A stretch of 64,000 bases of DNA from Amphirosellinia nigrospora (taxonomy: Eukaryota; Ascomycota; Sordariomycetes; Xylariales; Xylariaceae). Numbering within the stretch: position 1 is the first letter of the stretch; the number at the start of each line of letters is the position of its first letter. The notes below the pieces were generated by a model. The model saw nothing but the letters and a program-made list of their open reading frames with translations, was not told where the DNA came from and searched no databases. The translations under genes were made by a program, and so were the position numbers. Shown piece by piece: positions 38,418-48,550 of this stretch. The stretch is taken from contig SCHM01000001.1 in the NCBI GenBank assembly GCA_004123355.1, positions 8,256,193-8,320,192 of the forward strand, given 5' to 3'.

Positions 38418-39591
38418 TCAAGTTTCGGTATCTTTTGCTTGGCCCGGTCCTTGACTCTCGCCATGGTTGATATCGCTCGTGTCGGAGCCGCTTCTCGTCG
38501 GGGATCCATGCGTCCATTGAGTATAATATCGGCAAAACCTAGTAGTAGCACCAAAAAATGCTGCAGGTACGGCGGGGAGTCCGTAGACAGCGAAAACGCT
38601 GGTCAGTTCGCCGAGAGCCCAGAAGTAGACAGGGCTAACAGAATAAGTCGAATCTTTCGACCTTGAGGACGTCTGGGTGGCAACTAGTCGGAATATGCTT
38701 GATATAACACCGCTGTATCATCTCGTATTAGTATGCATCCGGACCAGCAAACATCTGATGTTGGAGTTCAAACCACCGGCCACTTACAATAAACCGACCG
38801 CGAATATCAAGGTTATTCCAACCCTTTTCCCTGTCGATGATTTCATGCGCCAGATGACGAGTTGTGGTGATAAGTAGAACGATGTCGGAAGCCACATCAA
38901 TCGATGAGATTGCCTCGGCTGCCTTTGCGTCAAGACATCTACCCTCGACCGTCGGGTCCCATAAAATTGGCATGGCAAGCATTGCATACTTTCTACAATG
39001 ATGCTTGCGATGTAAAACAGTACATTAAGCCACAAGACAACATGGCAGATCCAGAAGAAGGCGTGCGAGATTGGTGAGAATATGCGCATCCATTCCAGCA
39101 AAATAGCCACCTTGACGGGGGCTATTGCCGAGTTGTAAAGCAGTCCTGCAATATGCCCACTGCGGTTGGCTGTTAACCTTGAATAGCCAGACGAGAGGAG
39201 TACATACGTATGAAAATCCAACTTTGTCTCCTACAGTCACATCCCATTGATGCACCCACCACCCTATCTCGATCTGCGCTATACGAGCAAGCAGTACACA
39301 AAACCGATGTACGACGCCTATCACGCTGTCAATTACAGACACTGCAGTAGTCGTCTACTAGGCGAACACACAAAGCCACTGATTATGAGGACTTTTTTGC
39401 GGTTGGTTAGCATCCGTAAATGAAGGAGAGGGCTCTCGCACCCGCTTCAAGCCTGCCCCTGAGCTGCTTCTGTTCGAATACCCATAGTAAATCCTGACTA
39501 GAACGGTGACAAATGTGATAGTGAGAGCGGCGATAAGGATACCATTGGCAAGCGCATTCATATTTGGAGGGTTCGCAAAGTTCGGCTCAAC
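38418..39591 (-). pseudogene. rhodopsin-like fungal integral membrane protein, 3' part, split by retrotransposon
   Basis: This is the main body of a seven-membrane-segment protein of the fungal rhodopsin-like (PTH11-related) group. Read from 39591 leftward: VEPNFANPPNMNALANGILI, the first membrane helix, GWWVHQWDVTVGDKVGFSYV, LLYNSAIAPVKVAILLEWMR, CHVVLWLNVLFYIASIIVE, the Cys-loop WDPTVEGRCLD, SPQLVIWRMKSSTGKRVGI, and the last helix SPVYFWALGELTSVF. The stop is TGA at 38420-38418. Introns with GTATGT and GTAAGT donors lie near 39,205-39,150 and 38,820-38,690. One or two homopolymer-type frame breaks occur, and a TAG-TAG pair lies near 39,355-39,360 unless a weak GTCCTC intron removes it. The first 20 codons lie 6.7 kb away beyond the inserted element, so the gene cannot make its normal protein. 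Confidence 0.8.
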
Positions 39592-39596
39592 GCCGT
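39592..39596. repeat. target-site duplication, left copy (GCCGT)
   Basis: GCCGT directly precedes the left LTR and is repeated directly after the right LTR at 46341-46345. If the following T belongs to the LTR, the duplication is 4 bp (GCCG). Confidence 0.85.
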
Positions 39597-39885
39597 AGTT
39601 ACGGATCTGCAGGCTCTGTGGCTGTGCCCACCACTAGCCACAGCACCCGTAATCTCCACTTGCAGTAACTGCCACTTGCAGTGAATGCGTGACTGCTATT
39701 CGTAGTGAATGTAGTTGCAGTGAATGAAGGCAGGCATTGGCAGTGAATGTAGCTGTCCTACGCGAGTATTTAAGCAGCTGCCTATATTGTAGACTTAGAC
39801 CTTTTTTTTCTTACTTTATCTGTAGATTTTATATACAATATACTATTTGCTAGAGCTTTATTTTTCGAGTATATAAAGCGTAATA
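39597..39885 (+). repeat. 5' LTR of Gypsy element, about 289 bp
   Basis: It starts AGTTACGGATCTGCAGGCTC and ends CGTAATA. It matches the copy at 46045-46340 along its length. The left two thirds keep normal composition; the last 90 bases or so are AT-shifted by C-to-T and G-to-A changes compared with the right copy. Confidence 0.88.
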
Positions 39886-42800
39886 ATTTATAGATTATTT
39901 AAAATATTATAAAGTATTAGGACTGCTTTTATAATATCTTTTAATTAAATTAAACGATTAATTTAACTTAAAAATATTAAAATGTTTTTTAAAAAAGAAC
40001 TAAAATAATAGGCGCGTATGGCCGTACGTGCTAAAGCTTTTGTTAATATTTTAGATTTGTTTGTTTCGAATATTCGAAACGATAAGCTTTTTATAACGAA
40101 ACTCTAGTAAATAATAGAAAAATATATTTATTTTAGCTTTTTTAACTATATAAAAATTATAATAATAGGCCGTAAAAGCTAATTGTTTTTAATTAATTTA
40201 GTATAATAGTTTATAGTACTATTAATAATTATATATTTAAAAAATAAAAATTTAATATAAATATTGCTAGTTTTAATCGGACGGTTTAATATTTAGCTAG
40301 TAATTATATAAAACTATAAATAAAAATATTAAGCTTAGCTTTTATTTTAAACTAATATATTATAGTAAAATAATTTAGCTTAGCTTTAATAGGAATATAA
40401 ACTAAACTAATATAAATATATATATAAAGACTTTATTGCTGTTTTTTAAAAAAAAAAATGCGCTTTTTTAATAATAGTTTATTGCTATTTTATTATTAAT
40501 TTATATATTTTGCTAAAAAGTTAAATAAATAAAAAAAGTTCTGTTTAATTAAATAAAAATAAAATAAAATTATTATTTTTATAATAAAGCATATATTATA
40601 TTAGTATATATATTATTAATATCTTTTAATTTATAATTAAAAATAATTTTAGCTAATAATAAATTAATTAATAAACTATTAATTAATTATTAAATAAACT
40701 ATAAAAAATAACTAAATAATATAATTATACTTAAAATAACTTAAATATTTCGAACTAATAAATAATTAATTTGCTAAGTTATTATAAAATAACTTTTATT
40801 TTATTAAATAATAAAAAAATAGCTAATATATAACTAAAATATTAATATTTATTTTTTATAATAATATAATTAAAAATAAATTTAAGTTTAAAATATAAAT
40901 TTAAACTATATAAAATTGCTTTAAATTTAACGTTAATTAGTTTTATAACAATATAATTAAAATAGCTAATATTAAAACTTATATCGGAAACTATATAGCT
41001 AATAACTTTTTTTTTTATTTTTTATTTAATTATTTTAATATATTTATTAATTTAAAAGCTATTTTAAAATATTTTAAAAAATTTATATTAACGTTAATTA
41101 TAATAAAAAGCTAAAGCTAACTTTTAATTTTTAGTTTTAATTAATATTATTAGCTAAATTTTTAGAATTTTAAACTATTTTTGTTTATTTAACTAGTAAA
41201 ATTAAACTTAATAAAGCTAAATAAAAAAAAAATTTAAAAATAAATTATTTTTTCGATTAATAACCGAAGCTATATTAAAATATTTAAAAAAAAGCATTAA
41301 TTTTAACGTTTATACAAAATATTATTTTTAAATAATTTATTATTTAATAATAACTAATTATAAGCAAAATAAAACTTATAAAAAAAAAACATAAAAGTTT
41401 ACTATAATTTTTATTTTTTTTTTTTCTGTTTTTATTTAAATAACTTTTTGCTTTATTTTAAAACTAAATAATAATAATAATAATAACTCTGCTTAATTAT
41501 TTAAGCTTAACGCTAATAAATATAATAATTAATTTTTAATAATAAATATTTTAACTATTATTAATAAAATATATTTCGAAAAAATACTTTTTAAAAATTA
41601 AACTTTAATAAATAAAAAAGCTTAAATTATTATTATTTTAGCTATATAATATATATTAGATATTAAGCTAGCTAATATATAAAAAAATAACCTATAATAA
41701 GTATAGAAAAAAAAAATAACTTTAAGAAAAATAGCTTTTTTTAAAAGAAATATTTTTAAAAAATATTATTAGTTATAAAATAAATCTAATAAAAAAATAT
41801 TTAAGCAAAAATTTTTATTATATTATATTTTATATAATAATAGATTTTTTTAATTATAGATAATTTTTTCGGAAATATAAAAATAAATATATATAAAATA
41901 TAAACTAATAATTTATAAAAAAATTATTAAACTATTTAATTTTATTATTATTATAACTTTTTTAAAAAAATTATAAAATATAATAATAAAATAAAAAAAA
42001 TATTAATTAGGCTTTTTTATTATTATTAAAATATAAAAAAACTTTTAAAAATAAATTTATAATTATTATCGATTTAATTTATAATATTATTTTAAATAAG
42101 CTATAGTTTAAATATTATAATATCCTGCTAGATTATTAGTAGAATTATTTAATATTTTTACCTTAGCTATTTTTTAATTATAATATAAAGTATTATTTAA
42201 TAATAAATAAAATAAGTATATAGCTATAATATTTAACTTATTAATTTAATATTAATTAATAAAACTATAACTTTAAAATTAAAAAACGCAGCATTAATAA
42301 TAATAAAAAAGCGAAATAATATTTAAAAACAAAAAACTAAAAGTGTTTATTTTAAAGCGTAGCAATCCGGTATAAAAAATCGATAAAATAAAATAAATAA
42401 TATTTAATTAGCTTTTATTAAATTTATTTTTAAAAAATATAAGCTACGCTTTTTTATAAAAATATAATTTCGATTTTTATTTAAAAGTTTAATAAAAAAA
42501 GTTTTTACTATATAAAATAAAATAGTATTAGTTAATATAAAAAAAACTAACGATTAAAATATTTAGTTTAAATATAATTATTTTTAGTATAATAATAAAA
42601 AAAACCGAATAAAAAACGTTTATATTATTAGTATTAATAAAATTAATAAATAATCGGAAAATTAAAAAAAATAAAAATAATTTCTTAAAAAGAAAAAATA
42701 AAAGTTAAAATAAAAGCGCAAAAAATAATATTTAAAAATATTAAAACTTAATATATATTTTAGCTAAGTTAACTTTAATATGTTTTTATTTATTATTTAT

Positions 42801-42949
42801 AAATAGACTATAAATAAAGTTTTTTAAAGGTAAATTTAAAGCTAATTTAAGCTATAGTTTTTATATAAAATATTATTTAATAAGTTAAAAGCTATATAAA
42901 AATTCTTAATTAAAAACTTATATAAAAGTTTTATTAAATTTAATATATT

Positions 42950-44130
42950 TTATAATATATTTATTTTATTTATAAAAAAATAAATAGTAAGCTTTATTTT
43001 TGCGTAAATTATTATAAGCTAAATAAAATTATAAAAAAGGACCGATATTTATTTTTTTTTATTAAAAAAACTTTAGTTTATATTAATAAAGCGAAAATTT
43101 TTACCCGATTTAATATATAATAAATATTTAATTATATTTATATATTATTTAAAAATAAAAATTATATAATATTTTATATAAATATAATATATACTAATTG
43201 CTAATATTATTATTTAGTTTTACTAACGAACTTTTAATATTTTAGTAATATATTAATAATATATTATTTAATTTTTTAGATAATTTTTATAGTGTTTATG
43301 CTAATAATATTATTATTTATTCGGAAATAATAAAAAAATATATTATTTATGTATATTATATACTAAAGCGACTAATTTAGGCCGGATTATAAATTAACTT
43401 AAAAAAGTCCGAATTTTATATTATAAAAACTAAATTTTTAAATTATATTATTAGTATTAAAAAAATCTAAATAAACTTTGCTAAAATTAACGCTATATTA
43501 AAATAAAAAACCTTTATATTAGTTAAAAGTATATAATTTTTTTTAAGATTTTATAACTTTTATTAAAACTTTATTAATGTTTAAAGTTATATTATTATGT
43601 TTTTAAACCGATTAATATAAAAAAGCGTACTTTTTATAAAATTAAAAAATATAAAAAATTATTCTATTAATTTAAAAAAGCTTTAGTATATTTTTTTTTT
43701 ATTAAAATATTTTAACTATAACTTATTAACGAAAGTTAAAACCGATTTTTTTAATAGCGTTAGTTCTAGCGTATTATTATAACTGTATAATAAAACCTAA
43801 TATTTTATAGTATATTTTCGAAAATATTTTATAATATTAAATTAAACTATAATATTTATAATAAAAAATTGCTAGCAGTTATACTATGCTTTAAAAAATA
43901 AAAACTTAAATTAATTAGCGGCTATAATAAGCTTTTTTTAATACTTATTAATAATTAAGCTTTAGAATTTTTTAGCGAAAAATAATATTTTAACTTAAAA
44001 TAAGCTAAATAAATTAATTTTTTTTTAAAATACGATTTTTTAATATTATATCGCTTTAATAAAAATAATATATTAGCTAACGCTTTATTATAAAAATAAA
44101 AAAACTTAACGATATAAAAAGCTAAAAAAA
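42950..44130 (+). pseudogene. remnant of Gypsy pol: reverse transcriptase and RNase H
   Basis: Read as one frame with RIP-made stops. Around 43,235-43,430 the translation is FLDNFYSVYANNIIIYSE then ILKRLI*AGL*INLKKSEFY, the RT catalytic block with YxDD changed to YxNN (GA to AA, as RIP produces). Around 43,680-44,130 an RNase H block follows, with KVKTDFFNSVSSSVL, IVYFRK, FFSEK and FLILYR...ILANALL in place of the usual DHxxL..F...YRPGxxNxxADALSR pattern. Stops are at codons expected to be Gln or Trp. Sequence beyond about 44.2 kb should be integrase, but I cannot assign its motifs with confidence. Confidence 0.8.
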
Positions 44131-46033
44131 AAATAACGCTATTTTATAATATTTTAGCTAGTAAATAGTATAATATAATTAATTTTTATATAAATAAAGT
44201 TATATTAAATAAGTTTTATTAAAATATATAACAAACTAGGCGTTTTTATAAAACTATAATTAATTAAACGAATTTTTAAAAAAAACCGTAAAAATATAAA
44301 TATAAAAATTTACTATTAATAAATAAAAATAATAAGCCGGAAAACTTATAAAAATTAGAAAATAAATTAATTATTTTTTATATTTAATTATTTTTAACTT
44401 TTTATATTTAAAAATATACTTTATTAAAAAATATACTGCGGAATATTTATTATATATTTTAGTAAAAATAAGATATATAAATTTATTACCAAATATTATT
44501 ATAGTTTAAACTAAATAAAAATTATAATTGTTATATAGTAAACTATATAAAATATAGATTTATTAAAATATTTAAAAATAAAACTTTTAGTAAATTTATA
44601 TTTTTTTAATATTTAAGCGTATATAGCGCTACTTTATTATTAATTTTAAATAAATATTTAAAGATAAATATAAATATAATAATGTACTAATTATAGTAAA
44701 CTGTTTAAGTAAACAAGTATAAACTATATTTTATATTATAGAAATAACCGTAAAAAACGCTGCTAAAAATATTATAAAAAACCTTTCCGAGTTTTCGGAG
44801 TGCTTATAACTATAACTTTAAACCGCGGACTTTAGTTTATTTCCGCTTTTACAAATAAGCTATATAAGCTAATAAGTATAAAATATATATTAGTTATTAT
44901 AGAATACTATAAACTATAGGATAAGCAGAGATTATAAATAAATATTAATTAAAAATTAAAATTATATATAAGCTATTACTAAAATAATTAGTTTAAACGT
45001 ATATTTGCTATAAATTACGTATAAGTTTTAATTTTTTACGCTTTAATAAAACTATTGCTTTATAAAGTAAAAATAAGCTTTTTAATACTATTTAATTTCG
45101 ACTAAGAAAACCGGACTATAAAAAAAAGCTATAAAAGCTATTTGTTAAAAAAGAACAATTTAAACAAATATATAAAAAAAAGTAAAAAATAATATAATTC
45201 GTTAAATCGGCTAAAAAAACTTATATTATATTTAAAAATGTATAACTAATTAAGCTAATAAAAGTTAATACGAACTTAATTTTAACGTAAAAACTATATA
45301 TTAATTTTAAAAAAAAAACAATTTTAAAAACAAACCGCTTGTTAAACAAACTAAATTTCTTTATAATATAATAAAAATTTAAAATACGCGAAAAAGATAA
45401 AAATATATTTATATTAAATATTTTTATAATTTAGAAAATATTTAATCGGTATTATATAAATTAACTATAAAAATACTTAAATAACCTATTATTAGGTTAA
45501 AAAGCGGAAAACCTAAAAAAAAAATAATAAAACCTAAAAATAAAAAAAAATTTACTATAGAAAAAGTATAAACGTTTTAATTTTATTATTAAAAGCTATA
45601 ATACTAAATAAACTAAAAAAATAAAACCCCGATAATATATAATACTTTATAAAAAATTTTAAGAACAGTATAAAAGCACTAAAAAAATTTTTAACATAAA
45701 CTTTAATTTAGCCGGACCCCCGGTACAATTACAAATATAGCTAAATGCAGCGCAAAATAACGCCTTTAATAAGCTATATTTAGATAATAATAAAGCTATA
45801 GCGCAAAAAAAAAAATAACGCAAAAAAAGAACGTATAAAAAAAAAAATACGTTTAAATATATTTAAATATTATATTAAGCAAAAAAAAACCTTAAATAAT
45901 ATATAAAAAAACTAGTATAATAATTTAACGGTATAAAGGCCTTACGAAAATTTATATTAATAAAAACCCAAAGCGATCCTTTTTTTGCTAAAAGCAGTTA
46001 TAACTTCGACCCCAGTTAAATTACTTTTTTTTC

Positions 46034-46043
46034 GAAAGGGAAA
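46034..46043 (+). other. polypurine tract of the Gypsy element
   Basis: GAAAGGGAAA lies one base before the right LTR, in an otherwise T/A-dominated region. It is where plus-strand DNA synthesis would be primed and fixes the element's orientation as +. Confidence 0.7.
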
Positions 46044-46044
46044 T

Positions 46045-46340
46045 AGTTACGGATCTGCAGGCTCTAATGGCTATGCCCTACCACTAGCTATAGCACCTGT
46101 AATCTCTACTTATAATAACTGCTACTTATAATAAATGTATAACTGCCATTCGTAGTAAATATAGTTGCAGTGAATAAAGGCAGGCATTGGCAGTAAATGC
46201 AGCTGTTCCACGCAAATATTTAAGCAGCTGCCTATATTATAGACTTAGACCTTCTTTCCTTCCTACTTTATCTGTAGATTTTATATGCAATATACCATAT
46301 CTGCTGGAGCCTTGTCTCTTCGAGTGTGTGAAGCGTAACA
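46045..46340 (+). repeat. 3' LTR of Gypsy element, about 296 bp
   Basis: Starts AGTTACGGATCTGCAGGCTC and ends CGTAACA. Its left half shows C-to-T and G-to-A changes relative to the left LTR (for example CTTGCAGTAACTG against CTTATAATAACTG), and its right third is unmutated. Confidence 0.88.
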
Positions 46341-46400
46341 GCCGTCTGGCGACTCGAGTGCCGGCTGGGCGAGCATGGCCCGGCGCCGGGCCTCGTCCAT
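46341..46400 (-). pseudogene. rhodopsin-like gene, first 20 codons, cut off by the retrotransposon
   Basis: From the ATG at 46400 the minus strand reads MDEARRRAMLAQPALESPDG and then meets the right LTR. After removing the element and one duplication copy, the frame continues directly into VEPNFANPPNMNALA at 39591. A short head ending in PxGVxPNFxNPPNxNxLA is the usual start of this protein group. An upstream promoter should lie beyond 46,400. Confidence 0.8.
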
Positions 46401-47351: not shown

Positions 47352-48550
47352 TCAGTTCTCAAACTGTTCTTTGAAGCACAAGATTGGTCCCTCACCTCAC
47401 GCTACGATGTGCTCCGTGAGGACGTATTCAGGCAATCTCACACCATCGCCTTCTTCGTCATTTTTAACCCCCGAAGAAACACGGCTAACATCTGCCCTTC
47501 TAAAATCAAACTCCCAGAATAAGCGGGCAAATATCAGCATGATCTGAGATGTGCAAGAGGCTTCCCAACACAGCTCCGGCTAACGATACTAAATGTGAAA
47601 TACAGGAGCCTCGAGTTGGTTTGCTCTTTCATCTTGTTCCTGCTGCTGAGCCACCGTTCAGGCTTATAGGCGAGCGGATCATCCCAGTAGGCAGGGTGGC
47701 GATGCATTATATACACCGCTACGCCTACTTCGCAGCCCTTGGATATGAAATCGCCCCCAAAGGAACCACCTCCGGCTTCTACCTCGCGCCGGAAAGTGGC
47801 ACCGCCGGGCGAGGAGATGCGCAGAGTTTCGTCGACACAGGCACGTATGTAGACGCAGGAGTTCAACACAGGCCGAGACGTGTTTCATCTCTGAGGACTT
47901 GAACGTTTCCCCAACCTCTTTGGCTACTCTATGATAACACCGGGAAGGGACCGATAATAGTATGAAAGGGCCGACATAGTGGTCAATGTAGTGTCCAATC
48001 CTATACATATATGCCCGGTTTCAATGTCAGCGATGCATGTGACACCTTAGCACCACCATTCAATAAATTTACATAATCATAGCAATCGGTGAGGACAAAA
48101 GTTCCGTTGGCATAAACTGACCTGCTACAAGGAATGTCTCTGTCTCGGTGCTTAATTCCATGGTATTCAGTCCCTCGCCTGTTTCCGGATCTTTATATTG
48201 TTGCAAGAATGAAAAATATCTCGAGGGGAGGCCTCGTTCTCAAGCCTACTGGTGAGCAGCGAGCGGAGGAAGCTTAAATTTCGACGCTTGCATAATAATA
48301 CTTCATCGGACATTCGTTTCAGAGATTGCCTTCAAAATATACCTGAATTTCGGATCCTCAACCGTGTTATAATCGCGCCAAATGCCACGGCAGTAAGAGA
48401 GTCAAACGCCAGGTAATCGACTACTTTGGTTAATAACGTTTCTACCTTGTCTCTATGATATATATGAAGAACGCTATGATGAAACGAGGCTTACACTGAT
48501 GTGCCATGTCGAGAGGACTGGTCCATTTCAATTTTCGACGGCGACATAAC
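47352..48550 (-). pseudogene. cytochrome P450, C-terminal two thirds, damaged
   Basis: A haem-thiolate monooxygenase of the fungal microsomal type. Read leftward: SPLDMAHQ, a short intron (about 48,535-48,423, GTAAGC donor), CDYLAFDSLTAVAFG, EDPKFRYILKAISETNV, KDPETGEGLNTMELSTETETF (start of helix I), the K-helix ExxR in ACVDETLRISSPGG, HRHPAYWDDPLAYKPERWL, and the haem-binding loop FSIVSRSCVGKPLA (canonical FxxGxRxCxG; the middle Gly is Val here). The tail TEHIVA is followed by an in-frame TGA where Arg is expected, then GPILCFKEQFEN. Several single-base breaks are present. The N-terminal membrane anchor is not recognisable upstream. The Gly-to-Val change and the nonsense codon suggest real decay in addition to sequence errors. 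Confidence 0.7.

Follow-up and report, generated by a model that had tools for sequence, protein, structure and literature searches.

What broke the gene on the minus strand of this locus, and in what state was the gene when it was hit? In a 64,000-nucleotide stretch of the Amphirosellinia nigrospora genome (the window; C1:8256193-8320192 in a 48.1-Mb, 11-contig assembly), the two parts of a fungal rhodopsin-family (PF20684) gene stand on either side of a long terminal repeat (LTR) element of 6,744 bp (39597-46340). An initial annotation had reported GCCGT before the left LTR and after the right LTR, and the motif was indeed found flush with both borders (Table 1). We assign a probability of about 93% to the following course of events: a Gypsy/chromovirus-type LTR retrotransposon would have entered exon 1 of the gene in antisense orientation, after codon 20; the insertion would have duplicated 5 bp of the target, GCCGT; and repeat-induced point mutation (RIP) would then have altered most of the C and G of the interior, fading out within the LTRs. 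Integration was probably carried out by the element's own integrase, the host gene presumably worked when it was hit, and its full product is presumably no longer made. All copies and gene relatives used for comparison, designated by L numbers, came from the same genome.

The family of the host gene was recognized from a Fung_rhodopsin PF20684 match in the minus-strand frame at 38784-39230 (49.4 bits with a cutoff of 27, E value of 5.6e-13; 58.7 bits in the genome-wide search), and the last coding part matched PF20684 positions 185 to 231 with an E value of 0.0094, which alone is below the curated cutoff. The genome-wide search, in which 150 of 161 candidates were scored, gave 120 PF20684 matches, which are exon pieces and not genes, and a DNA search of this genome found no second DNA-level copy of the host gene besides that in the window. 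The two host pieces were compared separately. With codon borders at 46341 and 39591, they are in phase, so that the minus-strand piece 46400-46341 continues across the element in the frame that resumes at 39591 as VEPNFANPPNMNALA, as had been claimed. The further claim that removing the element leaves an uninterrupted frame held for the phase across the junction and failed beyond it, where the frame runs for only about 35 codons before a break near 39486.

Closest to the host gene among its relatives was the locus L029/L041/L047 (C5:7.867 Mb; 58% identity over 36 amino acids and 63% over 46 amino acids). Its start in L029, MDRDAILAQPAL, matched the 20-codon piece of the window (60% across 20 columns that include a gap), and the part that follows, GVTPNFEHPPNMN, matched the window frame from 39591 (61% over 36 amino acids). 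In two other relatives, L042 and L043, the head and the following part are contiguous in a single frame, and L029 holds both parts with a small break; the initial annotation is supported in that the window pieces are in phase with a head that is contiguous in relatives. Over four collinear segments comprising 113 codons, L029 and the host gene differed at 33, 23, and 63 sites in codon positions 1, 2, and 3, respectively, and this excess at third positions points to constraint through most of the divergence.

A match at the junction could also arise by chance between two host pieces that are in fact separate genes. One gene is favored by the position and strand of the pieces, by their phase, and by the head sequence. 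When every fourth 20-residue stretch of the window was taken in six frames, with the surroundings of the piece itself excluded, none of the approximately 31,936 stretches matched the L041 or L042 head with a score as high as that of the true piece. Separate genes are accordingly very improbable, and nothing was found in their favor except that the 20-codon piece is short and that the L043 head is uninformative. Four points weigh against an insertion into a single working gene: the L043 head does not discriminate, with 922 of the approximately 31,936 stretches reaching the score of the true piece; L029 changes frame between its head and its following part; about four extra breaks in the host gene mean that it was perhaps not working when hit; and the evidence comes from one assembly of one strain.

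The identity of the element inserted into the rhodopsin-family gene was established through a full-length copy without RIP, L073 (C4:4.987-4.996 Mb), which has a G+C content of 49 to 56% in 500-nucleotide bins and an LTR pair without any difference over 295 aligned sites. One of its open frames contains RVT_1, and the next contains RT_RNaseH, Integrase_H2C2, rve, and Chromo, the last (PF00385) at residues 716 to 764 with an E value of 4.8e-7, after rve at residues 403 to 497; the first long frame gave only a subthreshold HeLo match (22.6 bits versus 23.2). This order of reverse transcriptase, RNase H, and integrase with the H2C2 and rve domains, followed by a C-terminal chromodomain, is that of the fungal chromodomain Ty3/Gypsy retrotransposons (chromoviruses). 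The window element was collinear with L073 from end to end, with L073 trimmed 2 nucleotides short at its right end, and the alignment contained 4,146 identical sites, 1,270 C>T changes, and 1,210 G>A changes. Against these 2,480 changes stood 40 reverse transitions and 67 transversions, the latter count being a lower bound, since the alignment scoring rewards purine/pyrimidine agreement. Because it is collinear with a copy that carries RVT_1, RNase H, integrase, and Chromo, the window element is, by alignment, a chromodomain Gypsy (chromovirus-type) LTR retrotransposon, and it has an LTR pair with a target site duplication, as is expected of Ty3/Gypsy elements. Together with the PF20684 match and the duplication, this collinearity supports the initial annotation in that a Gypsy-type element interrupts the first exon of a gene of the fungal rhodopsin family.

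The LTR family was characterized with 42 copies, comprising the 2 of the window, the 2 of L073, and others from the best 40 of 216 first-look candidates that matched the left LTR; this choice by similarity favors unmutated copies, and strongly mutated ones are underrepresented. The LTR of the family is 296 bp long and runs from AGTTAC to GTAACT. TG...CA termini, which are described as common among LTR elements (PMC5659011), were looked for in the family LTRs, which have AG...CT ends instead, with the borders fixed by the flush 5-bp duplications; the window copy has AG...CA, and TG...CA ends were not taken as defining for Gypsy elements. Both window LTRs end in A (GTAACA and GTAATA). Of the 39 other copies listed, 38 have T as their last letter, and the end of the LTR is missing from the remaining one, L093. 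Because of this shared terminal A, the two window LTRs likely derive from one parent. An exact flush match of the 5-bp flanks, as a solo LTR would show, was present in 17 of the 42 copies, compared with 4 of 210 shifted control comparisons, so the 5-bp duplication fits the family; the full-length copy has ATTTA at both outer sides. In 27 of the 42 LTRs, both 400-nucleotide flanks had a G+C content below 25% (one flank being element interior in full-length copies), which makes a copy in a GC-balanced gene a minority case within the family. In having a target site duplication within a coding exon, the insertion resembles other transposon insertions in fungal genes, with nothing notably different. 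In L073, the 10 nucleotides just past the LTR form the complement of a 10-mer within it, and when the LTR was shuffled by mononucleotides 2,000 times, 3 shuffles reached a complementarity of at least 10. Self-priming of this type is described for Tj1 and Tf1 (PMC4600332), and the complementarity by itself suggests that a Tf1-style self-primer is possible in this family.

The initial annotation was silent on the heavy mutation of the element. Relative to L073, 77% of the interior C/G sites were changed, with equal fractions on the two strands (0.773 and 0.770), and the interior is left with a G+C content of 9 to 18% (six 1-kb bins, 40001-46000). Interior cytosines were changed at 94% of CpA, 77% of CpT, 76% of CpG, and 63% of CpC sites. 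RIP prefers CpA (PMC12543289). An excess of C>T and G>A changes, equality of the strands, and CpA as the most affected context are shared with the RIP-mutated LTR retrotransposons of filamentous ascomycetes, as expected of a RIP target; possible differences from those elements are that other contexts were changed nearly as heavily here and that the changes die away inside the LTRs. Mutation by the fungus's own repeat defense is the most likely source of these changes, which we infer from their pattern to be RIP in the strict sense.

The fading was visible from both sides. Counted inward from the left outer edge, the first five 100-nucleotide bins had changed fractions of 0, 14, 42, 73, and 44%; the bins toward the right outer edge had 70, 60, 32, 35, 21, and 5%, so that the outer LTR ends of the window element are changed at 0 to 5% of sites. 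Across 11 LTRs classed as 5' from the bases next to them on the inner side, with both L073 LTRs left out, the mean per 50-nucleotide bin was 7, 13, 19, 19, 66, and 62% from the outer to the inner end. Since the LTRs of the window element are nearly clean at their outer ends, a spread of RIP from the element into the host gene is unlikely. Among 17 solo-like LTRs, 14 had fewer than 10% of their C/G sites changed, and 10 of those 14 lay between two flanks with a G+C content below 25%; the remaining three (L086 and both of L081) had 20 to 34% of their C/G sites changed, and a further copy in L064, changed throughout its length, is a counterexample to clean LTRs. Nine loci (L061 to L063, L067, L071, L072, L074, L076, and L077) combined a solo-like structure, exact 5-bp flush matches, an AT-rich setting, and less than 10% changed sites. 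In this genome, the short 296-bp LTRs might escape RIP by themselves, with the changes entering from the inside and dying out before the outer edge, and might buffer a hit gene from RIP; we regard this reading as doubtful and rate it lower because the LTR sample underrepresents strongly mutated copies.

The LTR pair bears on the age of the insertion in the rhodopsin-family gene: over 290 aligned sites, it shows 40 transitions, 7 gap columns, and no transversions. The absence of transversions favors a young insertion, as judged from the LTRs; as a date, the divergence was discarded, since all 40 transitions can be made by RIP and nothing beyond "young" can be said. The 5' LTR has five small deletions, of 7 nucleotides in total, relative to the 3' LTR, which itself had no indels relative to L061, L062, L063, and others. 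These indels were likewise rejected as a clock: by eye, three of the five deletions fall where RIP has created T runs or a TA repeat. Other RIP-mutated LTR copies carry deletions at the same places as the left LTR.

The initial annotation had also taken the sequence of the host gene to date the insertion as recent relative to gene decay, and this claim was not supported. Reading of the collinear segments aligned with L029 located four frame breaks, near 39486, 39280, 38968, and 38867, in about 0.75 kb of coding sequence, and in this assembly no single intact frame for a working PF20684 protein was found, the frame being cut by the element and by these breaks. Chaperonin (CCT) and HSP70 genes are expected to be essential. 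Over 25.9 kb of their matches in the same assembly, a loose count nevertheless gave 18 breaks with no gap of intron size, and a strict recount gave 8, in six loci; the other 10 are doubtful because the match holds stops (possibly intron read-through), exceeds the span of the profile, or abuts uncleanly. Since even such genes contain breaks, indel errors in the assembly are likely, and this control makes the frame breaks an unsafe sign both of decay and of its absence. The state of the host gene does not date the insertion.

It is an even bet that most of the breaks stem from indel errors in the assembly, leaving the insertion as the only true lesion of the gene. Besides the breaks in the chaperonin and HSP70 genes, the gaps in the alignment with the full-length copy fit such errors, as they are far more numerous in the window element than in L073 (80 versus 7), although some of the 80 perhaps reflect genuine slippage within RIP-made runs; splice borders and the codon position pattern are also retained in the host gene. 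Eight LTR copies without any indel relative to the right LTR, however, indicate that errors are not dense everywhere, and the break density in the host gene exceeds that of the controls. At an even control rate, the probability of at least four breaks in the host gene would be about 0.002 with 18 control breaks and about 0.0001 with 8, both rough values because the counting methods differ. This excess over the background makes true decay a serious rival, and the strict count, by lowering the background, makes decay likelier and pure error less likely. The element would then have landed in an already dead gene, whose small breaks predate the insertion, as might also be suspected from an adjacent cytochrome P450 fragment that by eye looks frameshifted too and from the contrast between an insertion that appears young, as the LTR pair lacks transversions, and a gene with several indels. 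We consider this earlier death of the gene somewhat less than probable: the same assembly also has breaks in presumably essential genes, errors may cluster, the GT...AG borders are kept in four putative introns, the differences from L029 fall mostly in third positions, no nonsense change was recognized by eye except those after frame breaks, and the left LTR itself has its five small deletions.

Frame breaks were seen at other loci as well. L029 has three of its own; several other Fung_rhodopsin matches in the genome abut in different frames (by eye and uncounted); and the cytochrome P450 fragment next to the insertion (window 47534-48020, minus strand, E value of 1.4e-21) has two small breaks, near 47550 and 47870, also by eye. 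A fungal origin of the genome fits the fungal rhodopsin family and the eukaryotic genes matched, Pescadillo and PIG-U among them.

Table 1. Positions of the inserted element and of the parts of its host gene in the window
Feature	Position	Strand	Basis or remark
Last recognized coding part, 58% identity over 50 amino acids to L029	38418..38717	-	
Putative intron 4, GTAAGT...TACTAATAC...CAG, 75 nucleotides	38713..38787	-	inferred from splice signals
Open frame with PF20684 match; breaks near 39280, 38968, and 38867 in or beside it	38784..39230	-	
Putative intron 3, GTATGT...CAG, 48 nucleotides	39160..39207	-	inferred from splice signals
Putative intron 2, GTAGAC...TAG, 41 nucleotides	39318..39358	-	inferred from splice signals
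Putative intron 1, GTGCGA...CAG, 63 nucleotides	39379..39441	-	inferred from splice signals
Rest of exon 1, VEPNFANPPNMNALA..., frame break near 39486	39442..39591	-	exon end inferred from putative donor at 39441
Left copy of the 5-bp target site duplication, GCCGT	39592..39596		sequence
5' LTR, AGTTAC...GTAATA; outer 100 nucleotides without RIP-type change, inner end RIP mutated	39597..39885	+	
Element interior, Gypsy/chromovirus type, heavily RIP mutated; antisense to host gene	39886..46044	+	
3' LTR, AGTTAC...GTAACA; inner part RIP mutated, outer end nearly clean	46045..46340	+	
Right copy of the target site duplication, GCCGT; doubles as host coding sequence	46341..46345		sequence
First 20 codons of host gene, MDEARRRAMLAQPALESPDG	46341..46400	-	start Met aligns with that of L029/L041

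The insertion of this chromovirus-type element is a clean and well-dissected but ordinary case, of a kind already known, in which a gene was hit by a transposon. For the interpretation of this genome, it means that frame breaks in the assembly are unsafe evidence for pseudogenes. The fading of RIP-type change within the LTRs can be measured against an un-RIPped copy in the same genome, and if the LTRs of this family do escape RIP by themselves, then LTRs with the unusual AG...CT ends would keep the element's RIP out of the gene that it has hit.

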